Source of the DNA: Paraburkholderia sp. D15
GTDB lineage: Bacteria > Pseudomonadota > Gammaproteobacteria > Burkholderiales > Burkholderiaceae
Direction: 5' to 3'
Assembly: GCF_029910215.1 (NCBI RefSeq)
Contig: NZ_CP110396.1
Coordinates: 1,054,001 to 1,118,000 of the forward strand
Length of the DNA: 64,000 bases
This document shows positions 5,737-52,183 of the stretch, one piece after another. The notes beneath the pieces were generated by a model. It was not told the DNA's origin. It was given only the letters and a program-made list of their open reading frames with translations, and ran no database searches. Both the position numbers and the translations under genes were made by a program. Every line of letters begins with the position of its first letter. Position 1 is the stretch's first letter.

Positions 5737-6731
5737 GCGCCGCCGCTCCGAAACCGCGCCTGAAGACCTCGGCGATGATCGCCTCGATCGCCGGCGAAGG
5801 CCAGATCACGCGCGCCGCGCCGTTCGGCCATGCGCTGGTCGAACTGGCGCGCCAGCGCCCCGAGGTGGTCGGCATGACCGCCGATCTCGGCAAGTACACC
5901 GACCTGCATCTGTTCGCGCAAGCGTATCCCGAACGCTTCTATCAGATGGGCATGGCCGAGCAGTTGCTGATGGGCGCCGCCGCCGGCATGGCGCACGAAG
6001 GCGCGCAACCCTTCGTCACCACCTATGCGGTATTCGCCGCGCGCCGCGCATACGACTTCATTCACCAGGCGATCGCCGAGGACAACCTCGACGTCAAGCT
6101 GGTCTGCGCGCTGCCGGGCCTCACCACCGGCTACGGCCCGAGCCACCAGGCCGCCGAGGATCTGGCGCTGTTCCGCGCGATGCCGAATCTCACGGTGATC
6201 GATCCGTGCGACGCGATCGACATCGAACAGATGGTGCCGGCCATCGCCGATCATCGCGGTCCCGTCTACGCGCGTCTGTTGCGCGGCAACGTGCCGGTGG
6301 TGCTCGACGAATACGGCTACCGGTTCGAACTCGGCAAGGCGAAGCTGTTGCGCGACGGCGCCGAGGTACTGCTGGTGTCGTCCGGAATCATGACCATGCG
6401 TGCGCTGGAAACCGCGAAGGAACTCGCCGCCGACCGCATCGACGTGGGCGTGCTGCACGTGCCGACCATCAAACCGCTCGATGTCGTCACGCTGTTGCGC
6501 GAAGCGCGCCGTCCGGGCCGGCTCGTGGTCGTCGCGGAAAACCATACGGTGATCGGCGGACTCGGCGAGGCGGTGGCCAACGTGCTGCTGACCAATGGCG
6601 TGACCCCGCCGTTCCGGCAGATCGGTCTGCCCGATGCGTTTCTCGACGCGGGCGCGTTGCCCACGCTGCACGACCGCTACGGCATTTCCACCGCGGCGAT
6701 GTGCGACACGATCAAGGCGTGGCTGCGTTAG
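5733..6731 (+). CDS. Transketolase, C-terminal subunit
   Basis: C-terminal half of the split transketolase, 332 aa, with the pyrimidine-binding domain (FYQMGMAEQLLMGAAAGMA near residues 70-88, containing the Glu that activates TPP) and the transketolase C-terminal domain with the HTVIGGLGEAV segment. The start ATG at 5733 overlaps the stop of the N-terminal subunit by four bases. The two proteins together form one catalytic unit that transfers a two-carbon ketol group. The next gene, an SDR, follows after about 150 bases and is probably in the same transcript. Confidence 0.88.
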   Translation: MSAAAPKPRLKTSAMIASIAGEGQITRAAPFGHALVELARQRPEVVGMTADLGKYTDLHLFAQAYPERFYQMGMAEQLLMGAAAGMAHEGAQPFVTTYAVFAARRAYDFIHQAIAEDNLDVKLVCALPGLTTGYGPSHQAAEDLALFRAMPNLTVIDPCDAIDIEQMVPAIADHRGPVYARLLRGNVPVVLDEYGYRFELGKAKLLRDGAEVLLVSSGIMTMRALETAKELAADRIDVGVLHVPTIKPLDVVTLLREARRPGRLVVVAENHTVIGGLGEAVANVLLTNGVTPPFRQIGLPDAFLDAGALPTLHDRYGISTAAMCDTIKAWLR

Positions 6732-6879
6732 CAACCTCGACGAACTTATCCACCCCGGCGACCCCCGGCGCCCCTGGCGACCCGGCAAGCTCGGCGGCAG
6801 CGTGACAGCCGCAGCCGTGTAGTCACGGATAGCCAGACCGTCCACAAAGCATAACCATCCCATTCAGGAGAATCGCATC

Positions 6880-7644
6880 ATGTCAGAGTCACGTCTTCTC
6901 GACGGCAAGGTAGCAGTGATTTCCGGCGGCGCATCGCCGCGCGGCATCGGTATGGCGACCGCGCGCATGTTCGCGGCGCACGGCGCGCGCGTGGCGATCT
7001 TCGATCTCGACGAGAAAGCCGCCGTGGAAGCGGCCGCCTCGATCGGCAGCGCGCATCGCGGCTACGCGTGCGATGTCACGGATCGCGCCGCCTGCCAGGC
7101 CGCCGTCGAGCGCACGGTCGCCGACTTCGGTTCGATCGACGTACTGATCAACAACGCCGGCATTACCCAGGCCGTCAAACTGCTCGACATCGACGCGGAT
7201 AGCTGGGACCGCATTCTCGACGTCAATCTGCGCGGCGTGCTGTATCTGTCGCAAGCGGTCGTGCCGCAAATGAAGAAACAGAAAAGCGGTTCGATCGGCT
7301 GCATGTCGTCGGTATCGGCGCAGCGCGGCGGCGGCATTCTGGGCGGCCCGCACTATTCGGCGGCCAAGGCGGGCGTGCTGGGTCTCGCGAAGGCGATGGC
7401 GCGCGAACTCGGCAACGACGGCATCCGCGTGAACTGCGTGACGCCGGGCCTGATTCAGACCGACATCAACGCCGGCAAGATCAGCGACGACAAACGCGGC
7501 GAGATTCTGTCGGGCATTCCGCTGAACCGCCTCGGCGTACCCGACGACGTGGCCGGCGCATTCCTGTTTCTCGCGTCGCCGCTGTCCTCGTACATCACGG
7601 GCGCGGTGATCGACGTGAACGGCGGCATGCTGATTCACGGCTGA
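6880..7644 (+). CDS. SDR-family NAD(P)-dependent oxidoreductase
   Basis: Classical short-chain dehydrogenase of 254 aa. The cofactor-binding motif is the slightly extended SGGASPRGIG at 15-24, NNAG is at 91-94, and the catalytic Tyr159 and Lys163 are present with Ser residues at 143-146. An AGGAG-type ribosome binding site precedes the ATG. It sits between the split transketolase and the TRAP binding protein on the same strand, so it probably oxidises or reduces a sugar or sugar acid taken up by that transporter. FabG-like activity cannot be excluded on sequence alone. Confidence 0.82.
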   Translation: MSESRLLDGKVAVISGGASPRGIGMATARMFAAHGARVAIFDLDEKAAVEAAASIGSAHRGYACDVTDRAACQAAVERTVADFGSIDVLINNAGITQAVKLLDIDADSWDRILDVNLRGVLYLSQAVVPQMKKQKSGSIGCMSSVSAQRGGGILGGPHYSAAKAGVLGLAKAMARELGNDGIRVNCVTPGLIQTDINAGKISDDKRGEILSGIPLNRLGVPDDVAGAFLFLASPLSSYITGAVIDVNGGMLIHG

Positions 7645-38948: not shown

Positions 38949-40538
38949 TCAACCGCGCCCCTTCCCGCGCCCCCGCAGCGCAAACGCCGCCACCGTACAC
39001 CCCAGCATCGCGACACCCGCCAACAGAAACGTATCGCTATACGCCATCAAAAGCGCTTCGCGGCCCACCACCTTATCGATCACGCCCAACGCCGCTGCAC
39101 GCGCATCGCCCAAGCCGGCCGACGCCAATGCATCGACACGGCCGATGTGCGCGCCGCTCAACGTTCTGACCATCTCCACCATCCGATCCCGATACGCGCC
39201 GTTGAACGGCGTGATCGCCTCGCCGATCCGCGACGCGTGCAGCTTCTCGCGCTCCACCACGATCTGACTGGCAATCGCGATGCCGATCGCGCCGCCAAGA
39301 TTGCGCACCATGCTGAAGAGCCCGGACGCCGACCCGAGCTGCGACTTCTCGATACCATCGACGGCCATCACGCCGAGCGCGACCACCACCAGCGACTGTC
39401 CGATGCCGCGCACGATCAGCGACGGCACGACGACGTTCGCCGATGCATCCACGTTCAGATGTATGTTCATCAGACAGCCGATCGCAACCAGCGTGAAGCC
39501 CGCGATGATCGTCGTGCGCGCACTCGTTCTACGCATCAGCGGCGGCGTCAGAAACGACATCACGAACTGCACGAGCCCATACGGCACCATCAGCACACCG
39601 ATGTCGCGCGCGTTATAGCCCTGCAATTCGGCAAAGTAATTCGGCACGAGGAACACCACCGCGAACACCGCGCCGCCGAACAGAAACTGCATCAGACTCG
39701 CGATCCCGAAGTTGTAGCGCCCCAGCAGTTTCAGGTTGATGAACGGTTCGTCGCGACGCAACTGCACGACCACGAAGATACTCAAGCCCACTACGGCAAC
39801 GACGAAAGCATTCGTGATGAAGCTCGACCCGAACCAGTCCTTGCGGCCGCCCTCTTCCAGCACGATCTGCAATGCGCTGAGGCCGATCGCCATCGTCGCG
39901 ATGCCGAGCCAGTCGGCCTTGCGCAAGCGGTCGAGATGCACCGGCTCGGCCTTGATCGACCAGCCGATCGCCGCGAGCAGCGCAAGCGCGGGCGGAATCT
40001 GCAGATAGAAAATCCAGCGCCACGAGTACATGTCGGTGAGCCAGCCGCCGAGCGATGGCCCCGCCGCCTGCGCAACGTTATTCGCGACGGCGAACAACGC
40101 CATGCCGAGCGGATGCCGCGACGCGGGCAGCTCCGTGACGATCAGCTGAAACGACAGTGGAATCAGCACGCCGCCGAACGCGCCCTGAAACGCGCGCGCG
40201 ACGATCATCGCGTCGATGGTGGGCGCCACCGAACACACCAGCGAAAAAACCAGAAACCCACTCGTGCCGACCAGCATCACGCGCCGGATGGAAAACACTT
40301 TCACGAGCCAGCCCGTCAATGGAATCACGATGATCTCCGCGACCAGATACGCGGTGGTGATCCACGAGCCCTCCTCGAAACTCGCGCCGAGCGAGCCGCG
40401 AATGTCGGGCAGCGACGCGTTGGTGACGTGCACGTTCATGCCGGCCATGAAGCAGCCGAACACGCCGCCGAGCACCGCCACCCACGCGCGCCAAGACACC
40501 GGCTCGTGACGGCGGGAAGCCGTCGCCGCCGCGCTCAT
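38949..40538 (-). CDS. MFS multidrug transporter, EmrB/QacA (DHA2) family
   Basis: Inner-membrane antiporter of 529 aa with 14 predicted helices. Helix 1 has FGCFMAGMNVHVTNASLPDIRG, followed by SWITTAYLVAEIIVIPLTGWLVKVFSIRRVML and GPSLGGWLTDMYSWRWIFYLQIP, the DHA2 motifs A and C. The start codon overlaps the stop of the adaptor gene by four bases. Together with that adaptor and the outer-membrane factor upstream it forms a tripartite pump like EmrAB-TolC. Confidence 0.9.
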   Translation of the reverse strand: MSAAATASRRHEPVSWRAWVAVLGGVFGCFMAGMNVHVTNASLPDIRGSLGASFEEGSWITTAYLVAEIIVIPLTGWLVKVFSIRRVMLVGTSGFLVFSLVCSVAPTIDAMIVARAFQGAFGGVLIPLSFQLIVTELPASRHPLGMALFAVANNVAQAAGPSLGGWLTDMYSWRWIFYLQIPPALALLAAIGWSIKAEPVHLDRLRKADWLGIATMAIGLSALQIVLEEGGRKDWFGSSFITNAFVVAVVGLSIFVVVQLRRDEPFINLKLLGRYNFGIASLMQFLFGGAVFAVVFLVPNYFAELQGYNARDIGVLMVPYGLVQFVMSFLTPPLMRRTSARTTIIAGFTLVAIGCLMNIHLNVDASANVVVPSLIVRGIGQSLVVVALGVMAVDGIEKSQLGSASGLFSMVRNLGGAIGIAIASQIVVEREKLHASRIGEAITPFNGAYRDRMVEMVRTLSGAHIGRVDALASAGLGDARAAALGVIDKVVGREALLMAYSDTFLLAGVAMLGCTVAAFALRGRGKGRG

Positions 40539-41668
40539 GAACGGCTCGCGACGGGTTGCACGGCGTCGTCGCCGGTATGGACGCGCGCGATCACCGACAT
40601 GCCGGGCCGCAACGCCAGCGCATCGCGCGGGCCGCCGTCCACGCGGATCTTCACTGGAATGCGCTGAACCACCTTGGTGAAGTTGCCGGTGGCATTGTCC
40701 GGCGGCAATAGCGCGAACTGCGCGCCCGAGCCCGGTGCGATGCTCGCCACGCGTCCATGCAGCGTGTGCCCGGCGTAGGTATCGACGTCGATCTCGACCG
40801 CCTGGCCCGCACGCATCGCGGCGACCTCGGTCTCCTTGAAGTTGGCGATCACATAGACGTCCTGCAACGGCACCACCGCGAGCAACGGCTGTCCGGTCTC
40901 GACATACTGGCCGACGCGCACCGCGCGCTGGCCGATCGTGCCATCGCCGGCCGCGCGAATCGTCGTGTGATCGAAATCCAGTTGCGCGAGCGAGAGTGCC
41001 GCGCGCGTCATGCCGAGCTGGGCCTGTGCCTGCTCGATCGTCGCGAGGCTTTGCGCGCGTCGCTTGAGCAACACGGTTTGCTGCCCGCGTTGCGCCTGCA
41101 CGGAGGCGTCGGCCTTCGCGAGCGCGGCGTCGGCGGTGAGCGCGTCGGCATGCGCCTGCTCCCAGCGCTGCGCGCTCGATGCCTGTTCGGCGGCCAGTTG
41201 CCGGTAGCGCTCGGCGTCGGCCTTGCGGCGGATCGCGCCGGCCTGCGCCGCCGCCACGTCCGCTTGCGCGGCGGCCGTCAGGCTGCCTTGCTGGGCGATC
41301 TGGGCGTCGAGCGTCGCGAGGTTCGCCTGGTCCGCATGCAGGGTCGCGAGCGCGGCATCGACACTCGCCCGCGCGCGGCTCAGTTTCGCCGCGTAGTCGG
41401 CGCTGTCGATCCGCGCAAGCACATCGCCCTTGCGCACCGGCTGATTGTCGTCGACCTCGACGCTCGTCACGTAACCCGGCACGCGCGAACTGACGGTGAC
41501 GACATCGGCGCGCACGTAGGCGTCGTCGGTGCTCTCGATGAAGCGGCCGACGGTCCACCAGCGGATGCCCACGACGACCAGCACGACCACGGCGACGGTT
41601 GCCCCCGCCACGATCAGATTGCGTTTGCTCAGCGGCGACGACTTGCCGGGAACGACGGTAGTACTCAT
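40535..41668 (-). CDS. HlyD/EmrA-family membrane-fusion adaptor
   Basis: Periplasmic adaptor of 377 aa. Residues 20-38 form the single N-terminal helix; a biotinyl-lipoyl-like segment (VPGYVTSVEVDDNQPVRKGDVLARID) comes near 64-90, then a long coiled-coil hairpin from about 95 to 225 rich in Ala and Gln, and the C-terminal barrel with YVIANFKETEVAAMRAGQ. This is the EmrA layout. It bridges the MFS transporter and the outer-membrane protein. AAAGGT lies upstream of the ATG at 41668. Confidence 0.9.
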   Translation of the reverse strand: MSTTVVPGKSSPLSKRNLIVAGATVAVVVLVVVGIRWWTVGRFIESTDDAYVRADVVTVSSRVPGYVTSVEVDDNQPVRKGDVLARIDSADYAAKLSRARASVDAALATLHADQANLATLDAQIAQQGSLTAAAQADVAAAQAGAIRRKADAERYRQLAAEQASSAQRWEQAHADALTADAALAKADASVQAQRGQQTVLLKRRAQSLATIEQAQAQLGMTRAALSLAQLDFDHTTIRAAGDGTIGQRAVRVGQYVETGQPLLAVVPLQDVYVIANFKETEVAAMRAGQAVEIDVDTYAGHTLHGRVASIAPGSGAQFALLPPDNATGNFTKVVQRIPVKIRVDGGPRDALALRPGMSVIARVHTGDDAVQPVASRS

Positions 41669-41734
41669 ATCGGGACCTTTGAAAAAAATAACGAATCCAT
41701 CGTGACGACGATGCGCTGCGATGGGGTTCAACGT

Positions 41735-41766
41735 GATGCAGTTCAACGACGATGCAGTTCAACGAC
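41735..41766. repeat. Tandem 16-bp duplication
   Basis: GATGCAGTTCAACGAC occurs twice in direct succession in the short spacer between the NodT and HlyD genes. It is probably a slippage product. Confidence 0.6.
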
Positions 41767-41785
41767 GATGTGGTGCGCCAGCCGT

Positions 41786-43276
41786 CTACCGCTGCCAGCC
41801 GCCACCCAGCGCCTTGAACACCGCGACCTGATCGACAGCCAGGTCCTGCGCCGACGCGGCCAGCGCCGCATCGGCCGCGACGAGCGTGCGTTCGGTGTCG
41901 AGCACATCGAGGAAATCCAGCGCGCCCGCCTGGTAGTTCAGTTCGGCGAGGTGGAACGCGCGGGCGTCGTTGGCGCGCGCATCCTGCAACGCGTGTTGTC
42001 GCGTCCACTGCGCGCCGTAGAACGTCAGCGCCTGCTCGGATTCCTTCAGCGCGGTCAGCACGTCGCGATCGAACGCGGCAAGCGCCTCGGCGTTGCCGGC
42101 CTTCGCCTGCGCGAGGCGCGCGCGGCTCGCGGCCAGATTCGGAAAGCGCCAGCTGATCAACGGGCCCACGCCCCAAGCCATCGCGTATTGGTCGCCGAGC
42201 GATGCGAGACTGCCGGTGGTCGACAGCACATTCACCGAGCCGCCCAGCACGATCGACGGATACAGCTCGGCGTGCGCCACGCCGACACGTGCATCGGCGG
42301 CGGCCAGCCTGCGTTCCGCCTCGCGCAGATCGGGGCGGCGGCGCAGCAGCGCGGCGCCGTCGCCGACCGGAAACGGCGCCGCGAGCACCGGCGTTACGCG
42401 GCAGGCGTCGGCCTGCGCCGGAAACTCGCCGGGCGGACGACCAAGCAACACCGCGAGATCGAACAGCGCCGCGCGGCGCTCGCCTTCTAGCGTGGGCAGC
42501 GTGGCGCGCGTTTCGTCGAGAAAACCCCGTGCGCGCGTGACTTCGAGATCGGACACGAGGCCACGGTCGCGCTGCCGCGTGGTGAGTTCGAGCACGCGTT
42601 GCGCGACGCCGAGCGAGCGGTGCGCGACGTCGATGCGTGCGCCGCTCGAGCAGGTGCGCAGATAGGCTTCGGTGGTCGCCGCGACGACCGACACGCGCAC
42701 GGCGTCCGTTGCGGCCTGCATCGCGTCGGCGTCCGCATGCGCAGCGTCGACGAGATGGCGCACGCGTCCCCACAGATCGATTTCGTACGACACCGTGAAC
42801 GACGGCGAGTACGCCCAGCGCGTGTCGGCCGAATCGCGACGCGCCGCCGCGACGGTTTGATCGGCGCTCTGCTTGCCGTAGTTGCCGCCGAGCGCCAGTT
42901 GCGTATCGGGCAGTTGCGCGGCGCCCGCTTCGCTCAACACCGCCCGCGATTTCGCGAGACGCGCGAGCGCGACCGCGAGATCGCGGTTCCGATCGAGCGC
43001 TTGCTGAATGAGCCCGTCGAGCACGGGGTCCTGGTAGAGACGCCACCAGTCGTCCGCTAACGGTTGCGCGGTGACGGGCGCGTGTCCGGTGGAGACGAAT
43101 GGTGCGGAGGCGGCGGCCGGCGTCGAGGGTGCGCGATACGGCGCATCGAGTGAACAGGCCGAGGCGAGTAACGAGAGCGCACCGATGCTTGCGCGGCGTA
43201 AGAAGTAATCAGCAAGACGGCGAGCCACGCGATGAACGGTGCGAAAAACGGTGCGATAAGCGCCCGGAAGAACCAT
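41786..43276 (-). CDS. Outer-membrane efflux lipoprotein, NodT/OprM family
   Basis: Outer-membrane factor of 496 aa. A lipobox LLASAC with Cys41 follows a long basic and hydrophobic N terminus, so the mature protein is acylated. The body shows DDWWRLYQDPVLDGLIQQALDRNRDLAVALARL and the duplicated helical TolC-like repeats, ending QVAVFKALGGGW, the usual ending of the NodT family. First gene of the efflux operon; 117 bases separate it from the adaptor. The start may be further inside, as the first 25 residues are unusually basic for a signal peptide. Confidence 0.88.
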   Translation of the reverse strand: MVLPGAYRTVFRTVHRVARRLADYFLRRASIGALSLLASACSLDAPYRAPSTPAAASAPFVSTGHAPVTAQPLADDWWRLYQDPVLDGLIQQALDRNRDLAVALARLAKSRAVLSEAGAAQLPDTQLALGGNYGKQSADQTVAAARRDSADTRWAYSPSFTVSYEIDLWGRVRHLVDAAHADADAMQAATDAVRVSVVAATTEAYLRTCSSGARIDVAHRSLGVAQRVLELTTRQRDRGLVSDLEVTRARGFLDETRATLPTLEGERRAALFDLAVLLGRPPGEFPAQADACRVTPVLAAPFPVGDGAALLRRRPDLREAERRLAAADARVGVAHAELYPSIVLGGSVNVLSTTGSLASLGDQYAMAWGVGPLISWRFPNLAASRARLAQAKAGNAEALAAFDRDVLTALKESEQALTFYGAQWTRQHALQDARANDARAFHLAELNYQAGALDFLDVLDTERTLVAADAALAASAQDLAVDQVAVFKALGGGWQR

Positions 43277-43350
43277 GACAAATGCCCGGCAGTGGATTCG
43301 GAGGACAGATGGTAGAGTCCTGCGATCCGGTCATCTCTCGCAGAATTGCC

Positions 43351-44142
43351 ATGCATCGTCGCGAAATAGACAACTTCGGTTTCGTCGAAAGTCAGAAGGC
43401 ACTCGAAGTCTCGCCGGTCGTCGTGCTGGCCACTGACCAGCCCGCCCGCGCGGAATTTCCGCCGCACGCGCACAGCAGCGCGCAATTGCTCTACGCGATT
43501 TCCGGCGTGATGATCGTGCGGGTCGCGGGCGGCAGTTGGATCGTGCCGACCGGACGCGCGGTCTGGGTGCCGGGCGGCGTGCGCCACGAGATCCAGATCG
43601 CCAGCGACGCGCAGGTCCGCACCGTCTACGTCGCCGCCGGCGCCGACGCGTGCGCGACCTTGCCCGGCGAATGCCGCGTGATCCTTGTGAGCGCGCTGTT
43701 GCGCGAGTTGATCGTGACGGCAGCCGGCATCGGTCCGGCCAGCGACCACGGCGAGCGCGAGCGGCGCGTGCTTGCGCTGATCCTCGATGAAATCGCGGTG
43801 GCCGAACCGCTGCTGTTGCACGTGCCGATGCCGCGTCATCCCGCGTTCGCGGAACTGTGCGCGGCGTTGATTGCGCAGCCGTCGCTGGAGGCGTCGTTGC
43901 AGGGCTGGGCAGAACATGCCGGCATGAACGCACGCACGTTCGCCCGGGCATTCCAGCGCGAAACCGGCATGACACATGGCGCCTGGTGCCGTCACACGCG
44001 CGTGCTGCTGAGCCTGCCGCAACTGGCGAGCGGCGCGTCGGTGCTGGATGTCGCGCTCGATCACGGGTACGACAGCCCGAGCGCGTTTACGGCGATGTTC
44101 CGCAAGGTGCTGGGCGTGGCGCCGAGCGAGTACTTCAGATAG
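43351..44142 (+). CDS. AraC-family regulator with cupin-like sensor
   Basis: AraC-type regulator of 263 aa. Residues 35-90 form a cupin-like domain (FPPHAHSSAQLLYAISG, WVPGGVRHEI), and the C-terminal two-helix-turn-helix unit has SLQGWAEHAGMNARTFARAFQRETGM and VLDVALDHGYDSPSAFTAMFRKVLGVAPSEYF. The MHRREIDNFGF start at 43351 is preferred; an ATG at 43309 is in frame. It is divergent from the tripartite efflux operon at 43276 and probably regulates it. Confidence 0.86.
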   Translation: MHRREIDNFGFVESQKALEVSPVVVLATDQPARAEFPPHAHSSAQLLYAISGVMIVRVAGGSWIVPTGRAVWVPGGVRHEIQIASDAQVRTVYVAAGADACATLPGECRVILVSALLRELIVTAAGIGPASDHGERERRVLALILDEIAVAEPLLLHVPMPRHPAFAELCAALIAQPSLEASLQGWAEHAGMNARTFARAFQRETGMTHGAWCRHTRVLLSLPQLASGASVLDVALDHGYDSPSAFTAMFRKVLGVAPSEYFR

Positions 44143-44183
44143 AGGTTGATCCGGGTTTGCCGCTCGCGCGTGAATGCACGCCA

Positions 44184-44220
44184 TAAAAAACGACGCGCCA
44201 GCCACCAAAGGCTAGCGCGC
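44184..44220 (-). terminator. Terminator of the radical SAM/DUF1843 operon
   Basis: On the minus strand a stem with arms GCGCTAGCC and GGCTGGCGC (one G-U pair), extended by further G/C pairs, is followed by CGTCG and a run of six T. It begins six bases after the radical SAM stop codon. Confidence 0.75.
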
Positions 44221-44225
44221 CGCTC

Positions 44226-45686
44226 TCACGTCACCGGCTGCCCCAGCAAGTGTTCGAGATTGGTCATCAGCGTGCGGCGGTATTGCGCCTGCTCTTCGTA
44301 GGTTTGCGCGGCGGCCGCGATGTCCGCGTTGCAATGCGGGCAGGTGTGTTCATGCGCATGAACGTAGCCGTTGCAGTTGCGGCACAGTTCAAGCTTCGTC
44401 GGAAGCCGGCCCATATCCGGCGCGCGCTTGCCTTTGTTCTTCCACGTCAGTTCGATGGTCTGCCCCGATCTGACGATGCTCGACACGGGCGTGCCGTCGT
44501 CGATGCGTTCGGTCACCAGGTCGAAACGGCCCACCGCGAACGAAGCCGGCCCAGCCTCCTCGACCTTCGCGATCCGTTCGCGCAGCCCCTGCTTCTGCAA
44601 CTCGATCACGCGATAGTGGCAATACGGGTTGTTGCCCGGCTTGCCGAGCAGCGAATGCGAGGTCCACGTGCAGCCGCCGCGGCACACGTCCGCGTAATAG
44701 CAGGAGCGGCAAAAGCCCCACAGGTCGTCCACCGAACGCAGCCGGCCGAAGTGAATCGCTTCGCTGGTACGCCAGATTTCCTCGAGCGAAAGATCGCGCA
44801 CGTTGCCGCCCGCGAAGCCGACCGTCGCGAGCGACGGGCAGCCCTTCACCGTGCCGTCCGCCTCCAGCGCGATCACCTGTTGACCGGCGCTGCAGCCGGT
44901 CCAGTGCACGCGCTCGTCGCCGAACCCGCGCCACAGATGTTCGTACGGTCCGTAGTAGCCGATGTTGTTGCCCACGTTCATCAACAGACCGTGGTCGAGA
45001 CCGCGTTTGTAGAGATCCGCGAGCAGCGGCATCAATTCCTGCAACTGGTAAGGCTGCAGCAGCAGTTCGTCGTTGTCGGCGGCATTGCCCATCGCCACCG
45101 TCAACTGAATCTGCCAGTGCGTCGCGCCCAGTTCGATGATCGTGTCCATCAGCGCCGGCAGATCCGCCATGGTCTGCGCGCCGATCTGCGTGTTCACGCT
45201 GGTCGCGAGGCCCGCGGCTCGCGCGCGCTTGAGCGTGTCGACGGCGCGGCCGAACGCGCCGGGCACGTTGCGCACCTTGTCGTGCAGCGGCGCAAGTCCG
45301 TCGAGCGAAACGCCGACGCCGTTGAGCCCCGCCTCGACCGCCGCCGCGAGCCGCGCCGGATTCAGATTGCGGCCGCCGGTCTGGATCGCGCAGTACATGC
45401 CATGCGAGCGGATCGCCTTGATGAGCTGAATCCAGTCCTTGCGCAGATACGCTTCGCCGCCGATCAGCGAGACCTCGCGCGTGCCGAGCCGCGCGAGCGA
45501 ATCGATCACGTCGAGACATTCCTGCGTGTTCAATTCGTCGGGACGCCGGCGCCCTGCACGCGAGCCGCAATGCAGACACTTCAGATCGCAGGCCAGTGTG
45601 ATTTCCCACACCACATGAACGGGAACGAAGCGTGTGTAGTCGTCGTCGCGCAGAAAGCGCGCCGGTTGCTGACTGGTCTCGAGCAT
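44226..45686 (-). CDS. Radical SAM/SPASM protein with C-terminal zinc ribbon
   Basis: Radical SAM enzyme of 486 aa. The cluster motif CDLKCLHC supplies Cys33, Cys37 and Cys40; GGE is at 76-78. A SPASM-type set of cysteines follows at 265, 283, 326, 329, 335, 339 and 356, which in known peptide-modifying enzymes binds auxiliary iron-sulfur clusters. A C-terminal extension has two CxxC pairs (435/438 and 449/452) and resembles a zinc ribbon. The gene is last in an operon with three DUF1843 proteins, so it probably modifies them; this is inference. The start at 45686 has AGGGACG in front of it. Peptide maturases and heme d1-type SPASM enzymes are the nearest families. Confidence 0.85.
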   Translation of the reverse strand: MLETSQQPARFLRDDDYTRFVPVHVVWEITLACDLKCLHCGSRAGRRRPDELNTQECLDVIDSLARLGTREVSLIGGEAYLRKDWIQLIKAIRSHGMYCAIQTGGRNLNPARLAAAVEAGLNGVGVSLDGLAPLHDKVRNVPGAFGRAVDTLKRARAAGLATSVNTQIGAQTMADLPALMDTIIELGATHWQIQLTVAMGNAADNDELLLQPYQLQELMPLLADLYKRGLDHGLLMNVGNNIGYYGPYEHLWRGFGDERVHWTGCSAGQQVIALEADGTVKGCPSLATVGFAGGNVRDLSLEEIWRTSEAIHFGRLRSVDDLWGFCRSCYYADVCRGGCTWTSHSLLGKPGNNPYCHYRVIELQKQGLRERIAKVEEAGPASFAVGRFDLVTERIDDGTPVSSIVRSGQTIELTWKNKGKRAPDMGRLPTKLELCRNCNGYVHAHEHTCPHCNADIAAAAQTYEEQAQYRRTLMTNLEHLLGQPVT

Positions 45687-45833
45687 TGTGGCGTCCCTAT
45701 CTTGTGTGTGTTGCCCAGCGTGTGTGCCGTGCCTGTGCGGTATTGCTCGCGCGCGATCGGATGCGCTCCGCCCTTTGCCGCCGACACCGGCGACGCGCCT
45801 TGGCACCCCAACCACGGCACGTCGTCCGGTATC

Positions 45834-45862
45834 GGCATCGGGCGCGCTTTGGCGCCCGTGCC
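45834..45862 (-). promoter_or_regulatory. Intercistronic stem-loop before the radical SAM gene
   Basis: GGCA and GGGCGC on one side pair with GCGCCC and TGCC on the other, with small internal mismatches and a short loop. It lies right after the stop of the last DUF1843 gene in a 183-base gap. No T-run follows, so it may protect the upstream mRNA or reduce read-through into the enzyme gene. Confidence 0.45.
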
Positions 45863-45869
45863 GCGCCGA

Positions 45870-46454
45870 TCAGCTACGTCCTTCCAGACGCGCGATTTCC
45901 GCGTTCAGCTTCGCCAGTTCGTTCCTGATGTTGCCGGCATCGCCGAGATGCTGTTCGGCCTGCTGCGCAAGCGCCTTCATCTGCGTCAGATCGCCGGACG
46001 CCTTCGCCTGTTGCAGACCGACGCCATACAGCGGCGTGACCGGCTGATTCGGCTCGTGCGGCTGGATCGCGCCGACCAGCGTGACGAGCGCGTGCTCGAT
46101 GTCGTGCCAGCGGCCGTTCTCGAAGTACTTGTAGCTGGCTTGCCCGGACTGCCAGCCGCTCTTCAGCACGCCGTGAAACTGGAACGTTTCGGCGAGGCCG
46201 CTGGTCGGTCCCGACGGATTGCCCGACAGCGTGAGAACGATGTCCGCCTCGGCATTCGGGTTCAGCAGCAACTGCGTGTAATTGCCCCATACGTCCGCGT
46301 GAAATTCGAGCGGCGGGTAGGTCGATTGATAGATGCGGGCCACGCCGCTCACGCGTTTGGCCGGCGTATTGACAAGCAGCGACAGCGTGAGCACGGGTGC
46401 GCCGATCGCGGGCGTCGCGACGCGCAGATTAACCGGGAAAAGACCGACGGTCAT
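45870..46454 (-). CDS. DUF1842-DUF1843 protein, possible radical SAM substrate A
   Basis: Protein of 194 aa. Residues 1-130 are beta-rich (LTLSLLVNTPAKRVSG, FHADVWGNYTQLLLNP) and correspond to DUF1842; residues 138-194 are the DUF1843 unit: TPLYGVGLQQAKASGDLTQM near 140-159, then an Ala/Gln/Leu helix and the ending LAKLNAEIARLE. The same unit recurs in the two upstream proteins. No signal peptide is seen. CAGGAG precedes the ATG. The function of the family is not known to me; position next to the radical SAM gene suggests it is a modified protein or peptide precursor. Confidence 0.82.
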   Translation of the reverse strand: MTVGLFPVNLRVATPAIGAPVLTLSLLVNTPAKRVSGVARIYQSTYPPLEFHADVWGNYTQLLLNPNAEADIVLTLSGNPSGPTSGLAETFQFHGVLKSGWQSGQASYKYFENGRWHDIEHALVTLVGAIQPHEPNQPVTPLYGVGLQQAKASGDLTQMKALAQQAEQHLGDAGNIRNELAKLNAEIARLEGRS

Positions 46455-46503
46455 AGCGATAACTCCTGTGAACAAAGATAGCGAAGCGTGACGATCCAGC
46501 GCG

Positions 46504-47124
46504 TTAGCGAGCGGCTTCGAGCCGGGCGATTTCAGCCTTCAGATCGCTGAGGCCGGCCTGAATGCTTTCGCGGCTGTCGAGCTGCTGCTGCGCGAACGTC
46601 GCGAGCGTCTTCATGTGCGCGAGATCGCCGCTGGCGGCCGCGTGCTGGATGCTCACGCCATAGAGCGGCGTCGGGACGACGTGCGGACGGTTCGGAATCA
46701 CCGGACCCGGCTCGAGCGGCACGAATTCCGGATCGAGTCTCGCCGGCACGTTGCCGACTTCGTGCCACGAGCCGTTGTTCAGGTAGCTGTAGTTCGCCAC
46801 GCCTGCCTGCCAGTCGCTGTTCAGCACGAGATGCAGACGGAAGGTCGTGATGGAGTTCGATTCCGGGCCGCCGGTGTTGCCTTGCAACGCCACCAGGATG
46901 CGCGTTTCCGACGGCGGCATCAGCGCCAGGTACGTGAACGTGCCCCAGGTGTCGGCGTGAAAATCGAGCGGCGGGTTCACCGCCTGCGTGATCGTTGCGC
47001 CGCCGACGACGGTGCGCCGCGGCGTATCGACCAGCAGGCCGAGCGTGAGCGTCGGCGCGCCGGGCTGTCCAGTGCCGACGACATAACGGGCCGGGAACAG
47101 GCCAATACGGGGAATGGTAGCCAT
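46504..47124 (-). CDS. DUF1842-DUF1843 protein, possible radical SAM substrate B
   Basis: Protein of 206 aa and a clear paralogue of the next gene. The DUF1842 part (1-135) has LTLGLLVDTPRRTVVG and FHADTWGTFTYLALMP; a Pro-rich linker (PLEPGPVIPNRPHVVPT) leads to the DUF1843 unit with PLYGVSIQHAAASGDLAHMK near 153-172 and the ending LSDLKAEIARLE. AGGAAAACAGC precedes the start. The 48-base gaps on both sides indicate a single transcript. The divergence between paralogues is higher outside the YGV...GDL...MK core, so that core is under selection. Confidence 0.82.
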   Translation of the reverse strand: MATIPRIGLFPARYVVGTGQPGAPTLTLGLLVDTPRRTVVGGATITQAVNPPLDFHADTWGTFTYLALMPPSETRILVALQGNTGGPESNSITTFRLHLVLNSDWQAGVANYSYLNNGSWHEVGNVPARLDPEFVPLEPGPVIPNRPHVVPTPLYGVSIQHAAASGDLAHMKTLATFAQQQLDSRESIQAGLSDLKAEIARLEAAR

Positions 47125-47172
47125 GCTGTTTTCCTGATGATGGATGGGACGTCGATGAAGGGAGGCGACGAC

Positions 47173-47361
47173 TTACTGACGCTCGAGCCTGGCGATTTCC
47201 AGCTTGAGCACTTCGATCGCGGCGGCGAGATTGCCTTGCTGCTCCAGAAGCGATTCCGCCTTGGCGAGCAGGGCTTTCATCTGCGTCAGATCGCCTGTCG
47301 ACATCGCCTGATGGATCGCCACGCCGTACGGGGTGATGGGATGCTGCGCTGCTTGACTCAT
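47173..47361 (-). CDS. Stand-alone DUF1843 peptide, 62 aa, possible substrate C
   Basis: Small protein of 62 aa that is little more than the DUF1843 unit: TPYGVAIHQAMSTGDLTQMK at 10-29, a helix with AESLLEQQGNLAAAIE and the ending LKLEIARLERQ. GAGGAAGACC lies directly before the ATG. It is the first gene after the sigma-54 promoter. Its size, conserved core and linkage to a SPASM enzyme are those of a peptide precursor, but no leader/core boundary can be defined. Confidence 0.82.
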   Translation of the reverse strand: MSQAAQHPITPYGVAIHQAMSTGDLTQMKALLAKAESLLEQQGNLAAAIEVLKLEIARLERQ

Positions 47362-47460
47362 GGTCTTCCTCGCTGAACGAAGTAACGCGTTTGCAGAGAA
47401 AACAACTTTTTTATATTTGCGCCGGCTGAACCGGCGCGCCTCGGAACGCGGGGCAGACAA

Positions 47461-47476
47461 TGCAAGGCCTGTGCCA
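47461..47476 (-). promoter_or_regulatory. Sigma-54 promoter of the DUF1843/radical SAM operon
   Basis: On the minus strand TGGCACAGGCCTTGCA matches the -24/-12 consensus, with GG and GC separated by ten bases. Transcription would start near 47448, about 87 bases before the first start codon. Confidence 0.8.
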
Positions 47477-47546
47477 AACGCGGCGGAGATTGAGGAGGCG
47501 GTAAAACGGGGAGAAGATGGGGCGTCGAAGTGGACGGCGGCGTCCT

Positions 47547-47582
47547 TTCGAGTGGATTCGAGTGGACGAATTCATCCACTCG
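47547..47582. promoter_or_regulatory. Candidate upstream activating sites for the sigma-54 activator
   Basis: TTCGAGTGGA occurs twice in tandem (47547-47556, 47557-47566) and TCCACTCG at 47575-47582 is the inverse, so 47559-47582 is a 24-bp palindrome centred on GAATTC with one mismatched pair. A related AGTGGAC lies at 47529-47535. The sites are about 100-135 bases upstream of the predicted start, the normal distance for an enhancer. The 370-base gap 47362-47731 holds only these control elements and a terminator. Confidence 0.6.
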
Positions 47583-47642
47583 TCCTCGCGCGCGGCATGC
47601 GCGATGCGATGATGGACGCGCAAACGTTGGCGCGTCGGCAAG

Positions 47643-47679
47643 AAAAAATGCGGCGCGGAAAAACACTTCCCGCGCCGCA
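47643..47679 (-). terminator. Terminator of the activator/DUF917/racemase operon
   Basis: A perfect 10-bp stem (TGCGGCGCGG with CCGCGCCGCA) and an 11-base loop are followed on the minus strand by six T. It separates the racemase operon from the DUF1843 operon. Confidence 0.85.
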
Positions 47680-47731
47680 CTTTCCGCTTCGGTTTTTGCC
47701 TGGCGTCAGTCCATAGCCGCGACGCCGCGCG

Positions 47732-48457
47732 TCAGGAGCCGAGCACGTACTTGCTATACGTCAACCGGCTCGGACGAACGCGCATGCGCACCAGCCCCAC
47801 GAGGAAACTGAAGCCGGCGTGATTCGGATCGATCACCGGCACATACGCGCCCAGCTCCGCTTCGAGCATCGCGCCGACGCGGCTCGCCACATCGACGAAA
47901 CCGGTGCAGCCGAGCAGGATGGATTGCGCGCCGTCTTCCTTGATCGCCTTCATCGCCTGCTCGAAGGTTCTGGCGACCACCACGTCGGTGTTGCCGAGAT
48001 CGTCCACCGGGCAGTTGATCGAACGGATCGACGCGAAGTTGTCCTGCAGGCCATAACTCTGCGGATGGCCCCGCTGCATCGCCAGCGTGCTTTGCAGGAT
48101 CGTGATGATCGAGAAGCGCTGGCTGAGCAGCAACGCCGCGGCCGCCGATGTCGGAAAACCGCCGACGATCGGAATGTCGATCACTTCTCTGGCCGCTTCG
48201 ACGCCGGCCATGTCGAAGTCGGTCAGCCAGATGCCGTCGAAACCGTCTCTGGCGATTTCACTCGCGAGCTGAACGACCGGCATGCCGTTCTCGAGCCAGT
48301 TGGTGCGGTTCTCGATACACGGATGGCCGCTCGTGATGTTGCGGACCTCGACCTGAACGTCGGGCGGCACCACGGGGGCGACCGCCTGCAGGATGCGGTC
48401 GTTGAACTGGCTCGTCGCGACCGGCACGAGCACGCAGATACGAAGCGGTGCGCTCAA
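47732..48457 (-). CDS. Asp/Glu/hydantoin racemase-family protein
   Basis: Protein of 241 aa of the Asp/Glu racemase fold. The two parts expected of the fold are visible: LVPVATSQFNDRI at the N terminus and LLGCTGFVDVASRV in the second half with one catalytic Cys. The other usual Cys position is not obvious, so it may be a decarboxylase- or isomerase-like member. The best start is a TTG at 48457, five to six bases after AGGAGA, overlapping the stop of DUF917 by four bases (TTGA). Pairing with DUF917 is common in hydantoin-type amidohydrolase clusters. Confidence 0.75.
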   Translation of the reverse strand: MSAPLRICVLVPVATSQFNDRILQAVAPVVPPDVQVEVRNITSGHPCIENRTNWLENGMPVVQLASEIARDGFDGIWLTDFDMAGVEAAREVIDIPIVGGFPTSAAAALLLSQRFSIITILQSTLAMQRGHPQSYGLQDNFASIRSINCPVDDLGNTDVVVARTFEQAMKAIKEDGAQSILLGCTGFVDVASRVGAMLEAELGAYVPVIDPNHAGFSFLVGLVRMRVRPSRLTYSKYVLGS

Positions 48458-49692
48458 GACAGTTCTCCTCGCTGCGACGTCGAATGAAGTTTGCCCACGG
48501 GCACGTAGGGGCCGAGATAGCCGAGCTTCTGCAGCAGCACCTGGAAGCTGTCGAGAATCAGACCACCCGGTACGCGCAACGGCGCTTCGGCTTCCCAGCC
48601 GATCAGCGTGATCTTGCGTTTGCCGACGACGGGATTCGGCTTGCCGTCGGCCAGCACCAGGTCGCCATTGGTGAAGATCGACTGGCCTTCGCCTTCGACG
48701 AAATACGCGACGCTGTCCGGCGCCAGCACGATCGGTTGCGGACGCTGACTGTCCCACGCGAGCAGCGATTCGTTTTCGTAGATCACGGTGTACGTATGCG
48801 CGCCGGCCTTGATGCCGATCTGGCCCACGTCGAAACCGCCGCTGGTGTCCACCTTCGTCGACACGAGTTCGCCCGGCTCGGAAATCGCGCGCGCCGAAAT
48901 CCCGCAATGCTCGACGAGCCACGCGATCATCTGCGGCACGTTGCGGATGCGGCCCGCGCCGACCGCGCGGCCGAGCGTCAACGCACGCGTCAGCGTGCCG
49001 CGAATCGGCAACGCGGCGGCGAGTTGTTCGGGCTTCATCTGCCAGATCGCGAGGCCGCCGAACTGGCCGAACTCCGGATCGCCGACGATCGGCCGCATCA
49101 TCTGCTCGACGATCACCGACACGTCCTGCTGATGCATCGAACCACCGCCGTTGCTGCCGGCCCGCGGCGTCACGTTCAGCTCGACGTTCAAGCCACTCTG
49201 ACTGACGAGAAACGCCGGACGCGGATCGATCTCCTGCGCGGCGTACGTGAGCATCGGCAGCGACGGCACGGCGCGGCCGGCGCCGTCGGCGTCGATCACC
49301 GCGAGGCCCAGCTTCGCCGCCACCAGACACGCGACGCTGAAACCCAGCGCGCCGCTTTCCGGCGGCGCGATATAGGCCAGCTTGCGGCCCTGCGCGGCGA
49401 GCCGTTCCTGCACGCTACGCACGGCTTCCACCGGTCCGGTCGGATAGGTGGCCGAGTTGATCGCTTCCGGCGCGCCCAGGTAGGCAACCATCACGGCCTC
49501 GCCCTGTGCGTGCTCGCCCGACGCTTCCTCGACCGTCACGATGCTGACCGTGTCGCGCGGGTAGTAGTCGCCTTTGCGGAAATGCGCGGCCAGATGACGC
49601 GCGGATTCGATGGTGCCGCCGCCGCCGCTGCCGAAAAACGCACCCCCGAGCAGCAAGGGTTCCAGATCCTGGGGACCGAGTTCATAAGCCAT
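48454..49692 (-). CDS. DUF917-family protein
   Basis: Protein of 412 aa of the DUF917 family, found with hydantoinases and Asp/Glu racemases. The N terminus has DLEPLLLGGAFFGSGGGG, a hallmark glycine-rich segment; SNGGGSMHQQDVSVIVEQMM and VDTSGGFDVGQIGIKAGAHTYTVIYENE follow. AAAGGATTGG lies before the ATG. It overlaps the end of the activator gene by 11 bases, so the three genes are one operon. Its biochemical role is not established. Confidence 0.82.
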   Translation of the reverse strand: MAYELGPQDLEPLLLGGAFFGSGGGGTIESARHLAAHFRKGDYYPRDTVSIVTVEEASGEHAQGEAVMVAYLGAPEAINSATYPTGPVEAVRSVQERLAAQGRKLAYIAPPESGALGFSVACLVAAKLGLAVIDADGAGRAVPSLPMLTYAAQEIDPRPAFLVSQSGLNVELNVTPRAGSNGGGSMHQQDVSVIVEQMMRPIVGDPEFGQFGGLAIWQMKPEQLAAALPIRGTLTRALTLGRAVGAGRIRNVPQMIAWLVEHCGISARAISEPGELVSTKVDTSGGFDVGQIGIKAGAHTYTVIYENESLLAWDSQRPQPIVLAPDSVAYFVEGEGQSIFTNGDLVLADGKPNPVVGKRKITLIGWEAEAPLRVPGGLILDSFQVLLQKLGYLGPYVPVGKLHSTSQRGELS

Positions 49693-52138
49693 GTGCCAAT
49701 CCTTTTTGATGCGGTTGGAGGGAATCGCTGTCTGCATTGCTACCGTTGCTGCCGTTCATACCGTTGATGCCGTTGATGCCATTGCCGGCGTTGATGCCGC
49801 TTTGACCGTTGTGGCGCAGTTCGGCGAGCAGGCGGAACGCACGCATCGCATTGGGCGCCGGCCGCTCCGACGACTCCGCGCGCAGCGCGCGTTCGAGCAC
49901 GTCGATCGCGTCGGTGCGTCGTCCGCTCTGCTTCAGCAGATCCGCGAGATAGGTCGATGCGGCGATGCGCGCCGGCACCGACCCCAGCGCGCGGGCGGTC
50001 GAAATCGCGCTGCGCAGCCCCTGCTCGGCTCCGTTCAGATCGCCCAGCGCCCATTGCGCGCGCGCCCGGACAATCAGCAGTTCGCCGAGATACACGCGCT
50101 CCTGGCGCTCGATGGCCTCATCGAGCGCGCCGGCCAGCAGCGCCTCGCACGCGTCGGGGCGACCCGCGCGCAGCAGCAGTTCGCCGTGCTGCCACGTCTT
50201 GAATGAGTAGAACAGCGCCCCGCCGTTGTTCGCCATGTAGTTGTCGTAGCCGTCCAGCAAGGTCGTCTGGGCTTCGTCGAGCGCGCCGCGCGCGCTCAGG
50301 AAGCAGGCGCGAAACACCTTGCCCACGCCGCGATAGAACGTGAAGGCCGCCACCTTCGACACCGCGTCGAGTTCGGCGGCCAGCTCGCCAAGCCGGTCGA
50401 TGTCGTTGAACAGGAACGCGAGCCACGCCGCGCCCTGCAGGTCGAGCACATGGCCCAGCGCGTGGTCGTTGCCATCCGACGTGCGGGCGATCAGTGTTTC
50501 CATCGCACGGCGCGCGGTATCGACCGCGCCGATCTGATAACTCGCCAGACCCTCGAAGGTCAGCGCAAGACCGGCGAGATCGAGCCCTTGCACGCCGATG
50601 CGACGATCCTTGCGGCCGATCCCGCTCAGGCCGCCGCGCGTGAGACAGGCCAGCGCTTCCTCGCTGTCGCCCAGCCAGAACAGCGTGTTGACCATCGCGA
50701 CGTGCGCCTCGTCGAGCGTCGCCTGACGGCCGATGCCTTGCGCCTGTTGCAGCAGGTTCTGCGCGGTCGCGCGCGCTTCGGTGAGTTGCAACGTGGTGAG
50801 CTGCGTCGTCCAGACGCCGAAGCGCACCGACGCCAGTTCGTTTTCGTCGCACACGCCCTGGCCCGCGGCGAGCGCCGCCATGTAGCACGCGGTCGCTTCG
50901 GCGTGCAGCCAGCCGTAGACGCTGCGCAGACACACGCCGAGCATGCGGTACGCCTCGAACTGGAGATGGCGCGTGTCGTCCGGCCCGGTGCTCTTCAGCA
51001 ACAGGTCGAGACAGCGGCGCAGCAACGGGATCGCCTCCTGGAACTGCGATGCGCCGACCAGCACGTCCGCCTGCGCCAGACAATCGCGCGCCACGCGATG
51101 ACGTTCCTCACGCGCCTTCTGGCGGCGCTCGATCGTTTTGCGGCTCACCCCCAGCAGCACCGCCGCGGCGCTCTTGTTGTTATGCGTGCGTTCGAGCGCG
51201 CGATCGATCAGCAGGTTTTCGGCGGCGGCCAGTTTGTCGTCGCCGTCGAGTTGCAGCAGCATGTCCGCGAGACTCGCGCGCGATGTCTTGTCGACCGTAT
51301 CGGTTGCGAGAAACGGCGCCAGCATGTCGGCGTCGATCCGGGTGCGCTCGGCCAGCACGCTCAGTTGGCTGATGAGATTGCGCAACTGCCGGATATGACC
51401 CGGCCACGCCTGCTGACATAGACAGCGCAGCGCCGCCGGGGTGAATTCGATTGCGCGCGGCTGTTGCGCGGCGAAATGCTCGATCAGCAGAGGGATGTCG
51501 TCGGCACGCTGATCGAGGCCCGGCACCGTCAGCACGAAAACGGCGAGCCGGTAATAGAGGTCTTCGCGGAAGCGTCCTTCGCGCACGGCCGTGCGCAAAT
51601 CGCGGTGCGTCGCGGCCACCACGCGCCCCTCGAAACGCACGCTCGACGACGCGCCGATCGGTCTGAAGCTGCGGGTCTCCAGCGCGCGCAGGAGTTTCGG
51701 TTGCAACGCCAACGGCAATTCGCCGATTTCGTCGAGAAACAACGTGCCCTGTCCGACCTGGCGGAGCAATCCGTCGCGATGGTCGACCGCGCCGGTGAAC
51801 GCGCCTTTCGCATGACCGAACAATTCCGCTTCGACCAGGTGTTCTGGCATTGCCCCGCAATTGACGTCGACGAACGGCTCGTTGCGATTCAGCGCGAGCG
51901 CGTGGATGCGCCGCGCGACCAGCTCCTTGCCCGAACCGGTCGGTCCGGTCACCAGCAAGGCGTGATGCGTCGGCGCTACGCGGTCGATCATGCGCACCAG
52001 TTGCCTGAATGCGAGCGACGAGCCGATAAACGCCGCGTCGTCCGGAGCATGTGCCGACGCGCGCCGATGCGCTCCGCTCGACGAAGGTTGAGGATCGAAC
52101 TCCATCATATGACGCGCCCCCGGCACGGCCTCCATCAT
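49682..52138 (-). CDS. Sigma-54-dependent activator with C-terminal TPR-like sensor
   Basis: Enhancer-binding protein of 818 aa by this start. Only about 30 residues precede the AAA+ domain, which has Walker A TGPTGSGKE at 64-72, GAFTGA (the sigma-54 contact loop) at 112-117 and Walker B LFLDEIGE near 133-140. A Fis-type helix-turn-helix (KSAAAVLLGVSRKTIERR) is at 322-339, in the middle rather than at the end. About 450 helical TPR-like residues follow and may sense the signal. The tail is Asn/Gly-repetitive (GINGINGMNGSNGSN). Upstream TTG at 52183 and ATG at 52108 are alternative starts. The DUF1843 operon promoter is its obvious target. Confidence 0.85.
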   Translation of the reverse strand: MMEAVPGARHMMEFDPQPSSSGAHRRASAHAPDDAAFIGSSLAFRQLVRMIDRVAPTHHALLVTGPTGSGKELVARRIHALALNRNEPFVDVNCGAMPEHLVEAELFGHAKGAFTGAVDHRDGLLRQVGQGTLFLDEIGELPLALQPKLLRALETRSFRPIGASSSVRFEGRVVAATHRDLRTAVREGRFREDLYYRLAVFVLTVPGLDQRADDIPLLIEHFAAQQPRAIEFTPAALRCLCQQAWPGHIRQLRNLISQLSVLAERTRIDADMLAPFLATDTVDKTSRASLADMLLQLDGDDKLAAAENLLIDRALERTHNNKSAAAVLLGVSRKTIERRQKAREERHRVARDCLAQADVLVGASQFQEAIPLLRRCLDLLLKSTGPDDTRHLQFEAYRMLGVCLRSVYGWLHAEATACYMAALAAGQGVCDENELASVRFGVWTTQLTTLQLTEARATAQNLLQQAQGIGRQATLDEAHVAMVNTLFWLGDSEEALACLTRGGLSGIGRKDRRIGVQGLDLAGLALTFEGLASYQIGAVDTARRAMETLIARTSDGNDHALGHVLDLQGAAWLAFLFNDIDRLGELAAELDAVSKVAAFTFYRGVGKVFRACFLSARGALDEAQTTLLDGYDNYMANNGGALFYSFKTWQHGELLLRAGRPDACEALLAGALDEAIERQERVYLGELLIVRARAQWALGDLNGAEQGLRSAISTARALGSVPARIAASTYLADLLKQSGRRTDAIDVLERALRAESSERPAPNAMRAFRLLAELRHNGQSGINAGNGINGINGMNGSNGSNADSDSLQPHQKGLAHGL

Positions 52139-52183
52139 GATGAAAAACGGTAGGACTTCTCGAATCGCAGAACGAACGGACAA

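Follow-up and report, generated by a model that had tools for sequence, protein, structure and literature searches.

Candidate splicease-type backbone editing of leaderless DUF1843 proteins by a radical SAM/SPASM enzyme of Paraburkholderia sp. D15

Spliceases of the PlpX type remove tyramine at X-Tyr-Gly, and PlpX is a SPASM enzyme (IPR026482) that is encoded together with PlpY, a truncated RRE protein, and Nif11- or nitrile-hydratase-like precursors (PMC11002830, PMC10373908; all papers are represented here by excerpts of their text). The natural sites of PlpXY read MYG and LYG, PIRPLYGLPI has been published as a splice tag, and the leader is dispensable (PMC10533398), while Scott et al. 2022 (Chem) is cited for splicing being widespread and for beta-residues giving protease inhibition (PMC10373908). 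In this work we describe a four-gene operon at 44184-47476 of a 64,000-nucleotide stretch of the genome of Paraburkholderia sp. D15 (NZ_CP110396.1, positions 1,054,001 to 1,118,000; the window hereafter means this whole stretch), in which three genes for small DUF1843 proteins precede the gene for a radical S-adenosylmethionine (SAM)/SPASM enzyme, and for which splicease-type backbone editing of the leaderless DUF1843 proteins appears to us the most likely mechanism, a reading that the sequences make probable rather than assured.

The components of this operon have already surfaced elsewhere. The association of enzyme and DUF1843 is known, as it gives the NCBIfam family TIGR03913 its name (GDL-motif peptide), and the window enzyme is a member that differs from the family in nothing of substance; the name states the association and not the chemistry. 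The same four genes occur in Chromobacterium subtsugae (U6115_13245-13260; one DUF1843, two DUF1842 and one GDL maturase gene, co-expressed), where the authors of a 2025 paper assume that the set is connected with the XYE maturase system and with the provision of SAM for acyl-homoserine lactone synthesis (PMC12114271). Finally, the Burkholderia pseudomallei protein BPSS0212, a homologue of the window's DUF1842-DUF1843 proteins but produced without the enzyme, has been solved (PDB 8t0b, 8t1m, 8t1n), with its DUF1843 part invisible and with observed proteolysis that may have taken place just before it (PMC10994174). What the present analysis adds is a likely chemistry, tyramine excision; Scott et al. 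2022 may cover the TIGR03913 family already, and no passage joining DUF1843 to splicing was found in the accessible parts of the open-licence PubMed Central literature.

On the minus strand, the operon runs from a sigma-54-type site through the genes for proteins of 62, 206 and 194 amino acids to the enzyme gene and a terminator. The 62-residue protein (47173..47361), which we propose as the minimal substrate, consists of a DUF1843 domain (PF08898, 81.9 bits) with a splice-type motif PYG at 47323-47331, whereas the two longer proteins carry an N-terminal DUF1842 barrel before it: the 206-residue protein (46504..47124; PF08896 128.6 and PF08898 77.2 bits) has LYG at residues 154-156 (46657-46665), and the 194-residue protein (45870..46454; PF08896 130.0 and PF08898 77.9 bits) has LYG at residues 142-144 (46023-46031). 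The Pfam cut-offs are 23.3 bits for DUF1843 and 23 bits for DUF1842, and a profile search of the 8.3-Mb genome (three contigs) returned three DUF1843 and two DUF1842 matches, all within the operon. The enzyme, a proposed splicease of 486 residues, is encoded at 44226..45686. An initial annotation, made from the letters alone, had recognised this layout, and Pfam and NCBIfam matches, the consensus score of the promoter-like site and the folded hairpin of the strong terminator all bear it out, as does the DUF1842 barrel for the beta-rich N-terminal domain that it saw in two of the proteins. Its motif P-x-YGV holds for the two longer proteins, while the 62-residue one reads ITPYGV, with Pro directly before Tyr; the ending EIARLE is found in all three, close to the C-terminus rather than exactly there.

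Relatives of the enzyme are regularly accompanied by DUF1843. Among the best 80 of 96 confirmed matches from 84,980 species genomes, 78 loci have DUF1843 upstream of the enzyme, on the same strand and within 1,850 bases, and 64 of these 78 contain three DUF1843 domains. The 80 loci span four phyla; most belong to Pseudomonas, Chromobacterium and Burkholderia kin, and further ones to Alphaproteobacteria, Lysobacterales, Nevskia, two Bryobacterales (Acidobacteriota), one Gemmatimonadota and one Bacteroidota. Co-occurrence was also followed in a sample of 398 Pseudomonadota genomes, which overlaps the 80-locus set (G349 and L112 have contigs of equal length): the enzyme scores above 490 bits in three of them, the window's own included, and full-length DUF1843 matches above the cut-off occur in exactly the same three. 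Partial matches were found in G152 and G129 (below the cut-off) and in G120 (27 bits, above it, within a 753-residue frame, and not counted). At 1e-20, TIGR03913 matches 81 of the 398 genomes and 5 of 14 control genomes; outside the three, these matches score no more than about 120 bits and represent other SPASM enzymes. A chance operon was therefore rejected, given co-location in 78 of 80 loci and the same 3 of 398 genomes, and the enzyme very probably acts on DUF1843 as its substrate domain, as the initial annotation had proposed; the genome-neighbourhood survey that it had named beforehand as a refuting test thus came out in its favour. The modification system that it envisaged was too general, however, because kinship and motif point to tyramine excision at X-Tyr-Gly, and the association was already catalogued.

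In the two remaining loci (L111 and L113), no DUF1843 match was obtained, and each has an upstream protein (6654-6971 and 6534-6971, respectively) with the segment VYYRPVVFDIL, perhaps a strongly diverged DUF1843, the L113 protein having no NCBIfam match. Two loci of Lysobacterales place three DUF1843 units in one protein of 141-145 residues adjoining the enzyme (L106, 2346-2780; L107, 6418-6840), and a plasmid of Aureibacter tunicatorum (Bacteroidota; L122, 1664-5992) has three DUF1843 genes and the enzyme gene flanked by genes for a rimK-type ligase and a class I SAM methyltransferase. A rough survey for a conserved extra gene around the 80 loci (protease, exporter or PlpY), based on the longest frames, so that some loci contributed antisense frames, found none; the widest cluster of open reading frames (ORFs) of at least 100 residues outside the operon, LysR-type, reached 15 of 80. 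Nor is a small ORF downstream of the enzyme widely shared among them.

The enzyme itself carries the CxxxCxxC motif (C33, C37, C40), and the seven SPASM-region cysteines counted by the initial annotation were all located (C265, C283, C326, C329, C335, C339, C356), together with four C-terminal ones that it had passed over (C435, C438, C449, C452) and that form a zinc-ribbon-like motif. It scores 994 bits on TIGR03913 (GDL-associated maturase), whose cut-off is 591.75, and so belongs to that family, and its neighbourhood agrees with the family definition, as three DUF1843 genes with the GDL motif lie directly upstream. Its closest named relatives, from Paraburkholderia, are 92-93% identical. 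The second family is TIGR04103, which follows with 432.3 bits when the next among the 25 families listed reaches 162; the PQQ (PqqE) and mycofactocin (MftC) models, at 116.5 and 132.9 bits, stay below their cut-offs of 381.35 and 265. The relation is reciprocal: a TIGR04103 member of Nostoc sp. C057, found in a protein search of plasmids, is 47% identical to the window enzyme over 383 residues and has TIGR03913 as its own second family (414 bits; next 154). The Nostoc enzyme is accompanied by a Nif11 precursor with the ending GG-RGSIALYGLPPELF and LYGLP in its core, by a 71-residue gene that its place suggests to be PlpY, and by an NHLP precursor, a layout of the kind described for PlpX (PMC11002830).

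In a tree of 47 of 48 prepared sequences (L020 was too short and was dropped), 21 GDL enzymes, the Nostoc TIGR04103 enzyme and an enzyme from Tropicibacter form one clade with support 97/97, outside which fall 23 other SPASM rows and an Agathobacter enzyme; five outgroup rows were less than half filled and the tree carries a long-branch warning. The AlphaFold model of the window enzyme has a mean predicted local distance difference test score (pLDDT) of 81.8, and its best fold matches are PqqE, SkfB and SuiB, as expected for a SPASM enzyme; a sequence search of solved structures gave no splicease among the matches listed. Unlike the PlpX system, the GDL enzymes have the extra C-terminal four-cysteine ribbon, which, in an alignment of 25 GDL enzymes, is kept by at least 90% and which is absent from the Nostoc enzyme and from the sphingomonad-type L111 and L113. 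The Tropicibacter oceani plasmid locus (L123, 112-8319) has its splicease-like enzyme without DUF1843 and with two related larger proteins nearby, one containing VLYGADL and the other LLFDVN, apparently in the same place, possibly another substrate family.

The second line of evidence is the motif. The window proteins read TPLYGVSI, TPLYGVGL and TPYGVAI, so that one has PYG and two have LYG, the latter in a setting similar to that in the published tag for PlpXY of Pleurocapsa (PIRPLYGLPI versus TPLYGVSI), with the enzyme in turn nearest to that family of SPASM enzymes. Across 35 aligned proteins, only the initial Met, the motif Tyr and one Ala are invariant. In a tally of 216 DUF1843 domains of the 78 loci, which leaves out the window's three and L111 and L113 (213 domains were assigned, and three unassigned rows, all LYG, were added to the counts), Tyr is kept in every one, nearly always as [L/P]-Y-[G/A]: the preceding residue is L in 138, P in 72, M in 4, Y in 1 and V in 1, and the following residue is A in 109, G in 105, M in 1 and D in 1. 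Stand-alone DUF1843 proteins mostly have PYG (72), and fused ones LYA (90), LYG (17) or MYA (2). At least one XYG domain is present in 73 of the 78 loci, and an extra N-terminal PPYG in L057, L059 and L085 brings this to 76, with L039 and L112 remaining. These three are Chromobacterium loci (~5640-6304), where a PPYGTAL segment stands N-terminally on a DUF1842 protein whose end DUF1843 has YA. Cysteine is absent from all three window DUF1843 proteins, which sets them apart from the thioether-bearing sactipeptides and ranthipeptides.

Structural models place this Tyr where an enzyme could reach it. The 206-residue DUF1842-DUF1843 protein matches the BPSS0212 structure 8t0b by sequence (E 5.6e-72), and in its AlphaFold model the DUF1842 barrel is confident and matches 8t0b and 8t1m, residues 138-156 are disordered, and Tyr155 begins the first of three helices of a DUF1843 part that is of low to middling confidence. 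Since the linker is disordered in the model, and in the solved homologue DUF1843 is invisible and the proteolysis seen may lie shortly ahead of it (PMC10994174), the motif Tyr appears to sit in a reachable place, where a flexible linker ends. On the mechanism that we propose, one operon would make a PlpX-like splicease without leader peptides, alongside its own protein substrates; the enzyme would cut the tyramine part of the conserved Tyr out of the backbone at X-Tyr-Gly and leave a reactive beta-amino acid, an electrophilic ketoamide, in the DUF1843 protein. The 62-residue protein would be the minimal substrate and the DUF1842 barrel would serve in carrying or targeting, and we would guess that function resides in the ketoamide, which might for example inhibit a protease or bind covalently to a target.

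Several observations weigh against a splicease. The main weakness is the YA sites: Ala follows Tyr as commonly as Gly (109 versus 105 of 216) and the published motif is XYG, so that Ala is either tolerated by the GDL enzymes or marks copies that stay unspliced. In addition, 72 of the 216 domains have Pro at X, which was not among the natural sites found in the published passages available, L112 has VYD, and the two Sphingomonas-type loci, L111 and L113, have divergent partners only (VYYRPV). On the enzyme side, the 432 bits against TIGR04103 lie below that model's cut-off of 725, the GDL enzymes alone are grouped with a support of only 83/79, the tree was computed without PlpX itself, and the step from TIGR04103 to PlpX passes through IPR026482, which we take to be the same family. 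Lastly, neither a Nif11 or NHLP leader nor a GG site was recognised in the window proteins (NCBIfam gave no match, and Pfam above cut-off DUF1842 and DUF1843 only), and a tblastn search of the 80 loci with the Nostoc 71-residue protein gave no match at E<=1, by which a diverged partner could be missed. Compared with the PlpX substrates, the window partners are small helical proteins of a family in which half of the sites are YA.

The most serious alternative, which we consider unlikely, is that the enzyme alters the same Tyr or adjoining residues by another SPASM-type reaction (crosslink, decarboxylation or epimerisation) with no backbone splicing. It would accommodate an invariant Tyr whose next residue is not always Gly, the closest solved folds, PqqE, SkfB and SuiB, do other chemistry, and the Chromobacterium operon is assumed to be part of an XYE-type maturase system (PMC12114271); the enzyme groups by sequence with TIGR04103, however, far above the other families among the 25 listed, and those 25 include no XYE model. 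Considerably less probable is a role of DUF1843 in merely docking the enzyme, with the modified residue in DUF1842 or in another cell protein. Two of the three partners do have the DUF1842 barrel, and one further DUF1842 gene lies outside the operon in B. thailandensis (PMC12322963) and in C. subtsugae (PMC12114271), but DUF1842 is present in just 56 of the 80 loci, in many operons the sole partners are stand-alone DUF1843 proteins of ~55-65 residues, and it is the Tyr in the accessible linker that is invariant. That the paralogues form a self-assembling shell or filament, which the enzyme cross-links or hardens, is least probable of all, since the purified homologue is likely monomeric with no higher-order assembly (made without the enzyme, however), even if three DUF1843 domains occur in 64 of 78 loci and same-operon paralogues were the stated reason for picking the B. 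pseudomallei protein for structural work (PMC10994174).

Published expression data concern both domains. In C. subtsugae, the DUF genes of the four-gene set rise by ~5 log2 from 9 to 18 h (PMC12114271), and a DUF1842 gene is activated by acyl-homoserine lactones (PMC10197875); in B. thailandensis, two DUF1842 genes and one DUF1843 gene in a row are among the most induced in stationary phase (8.0, 7.7 and 7.5 log2), with another DUF1842 gene at 7.3 log2 (PMC12322963); and a C. violaceum DUF1842 protein is up with iron (PMC4216352). We would guess that cells produce a ketoamide-bearing protein once they become dense or enter stationary phase. Going a step further, and tentatively, as we hold it at somewhat less than even chances, the DUF1842 and DUF1843 proteins, whose strong induction accompanies high density or stationary phase in the few species examined, may serve without any leader as substrates of a splicease lineage that is self-sufficient, works on ordinary small proteins and tolerates both Pro at X and Ala behind the Tyr, equipping each of them with a ketoamide. 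Backbone editing would in that case serve these bacteria as a general way of modifying proteins and not just in the making of peptide natural products. If splicing itself is true, a concrete chemistry, the removal of tyramine from the backbone, can be assigned to a domain of unknown function that is strongly induced with density and has a relative of known structure, and splicease action is no longer limited to leader-guided peptides but reaches small leaderless proteins of Pseudomonas, Chromobacterium, Burkholderia-type and other bacteria. It would also provide new enzymes by which ketoamides, as reactive groups, could be placed in proteins, possibly with no need for a partner protein.

With regard to transcription, the predicted sigma-54-type site (TGGCAC-N5-TTGCA; TGGCACAGGCCTTGCA, 47476-47461 on the minus strand) agrees with 11 of 12 consensus positions and lies 115 bases before the ATG of the first gene; the window has two sites of this score, both on the minus strand, and none on the plus strand. 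The predicted intrinsic terminator (44184..44227, minus strand), a hairpin of -32.9 kcal/mol (z -6.07) followed by UUUUUU, was found 3' of the enzyme gene by folding and is missing from the list of a simple terminator scan, which does not cover sigma-54 sites; no Rfam match to a structured RNA was obtained at 43000-48500 of the window. The sigma-54 operon proposed by the initial annotation stands as a local feature, and sigma-54 control as a family-wide trait was rejected: upstream sites of at least 10/12 occur in 4 of 78 related loci (5%), versus ~2.5% of random 400-base stretches, and the strong sites are confined to four activator-carrying loci. These four (L034, L035, L037, L038) have near-full-length homologues of a sigma-54 activator encoded in the window at 49682-52183 on the minus strand (PF00158, 211 bits), the only such homologues among the 80 loci, a fifth match in L108 being partial and far downstream. 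Because the same four loci carry both homologue and strong site, we tie the activator to the operon in Burkholderia/Paraburkholderia and regard it as the likely regulator, the four being two close pairs and thus a small sample.

The activator has an unusual domain order, with an AAA+ domain from about residue 50, a Fis-type helix-turn-helix at 319-354 and then a long C-terminal region with TPR matches; an N-terminal sensor domain was not recognised. Between activator and operon (47732-49737, minus strand), a gene of the Asp/Glu/hydantoin racemase family adjoins an S-Me-THD-like gene (thiohydantoin desulfurase type), and among the 80 loci both are kept in L034 and L035 only. On the other side of the operon, minus-strand ORFs at 38949-43276 resemble, with names given by eye, a tripartite drug-efflux set of outer-membrane factor, membrane-fusion protein and DHA2-type MFS pump, and an AraC-type gene recognised by Pfam (43282-44142) adjoins them.

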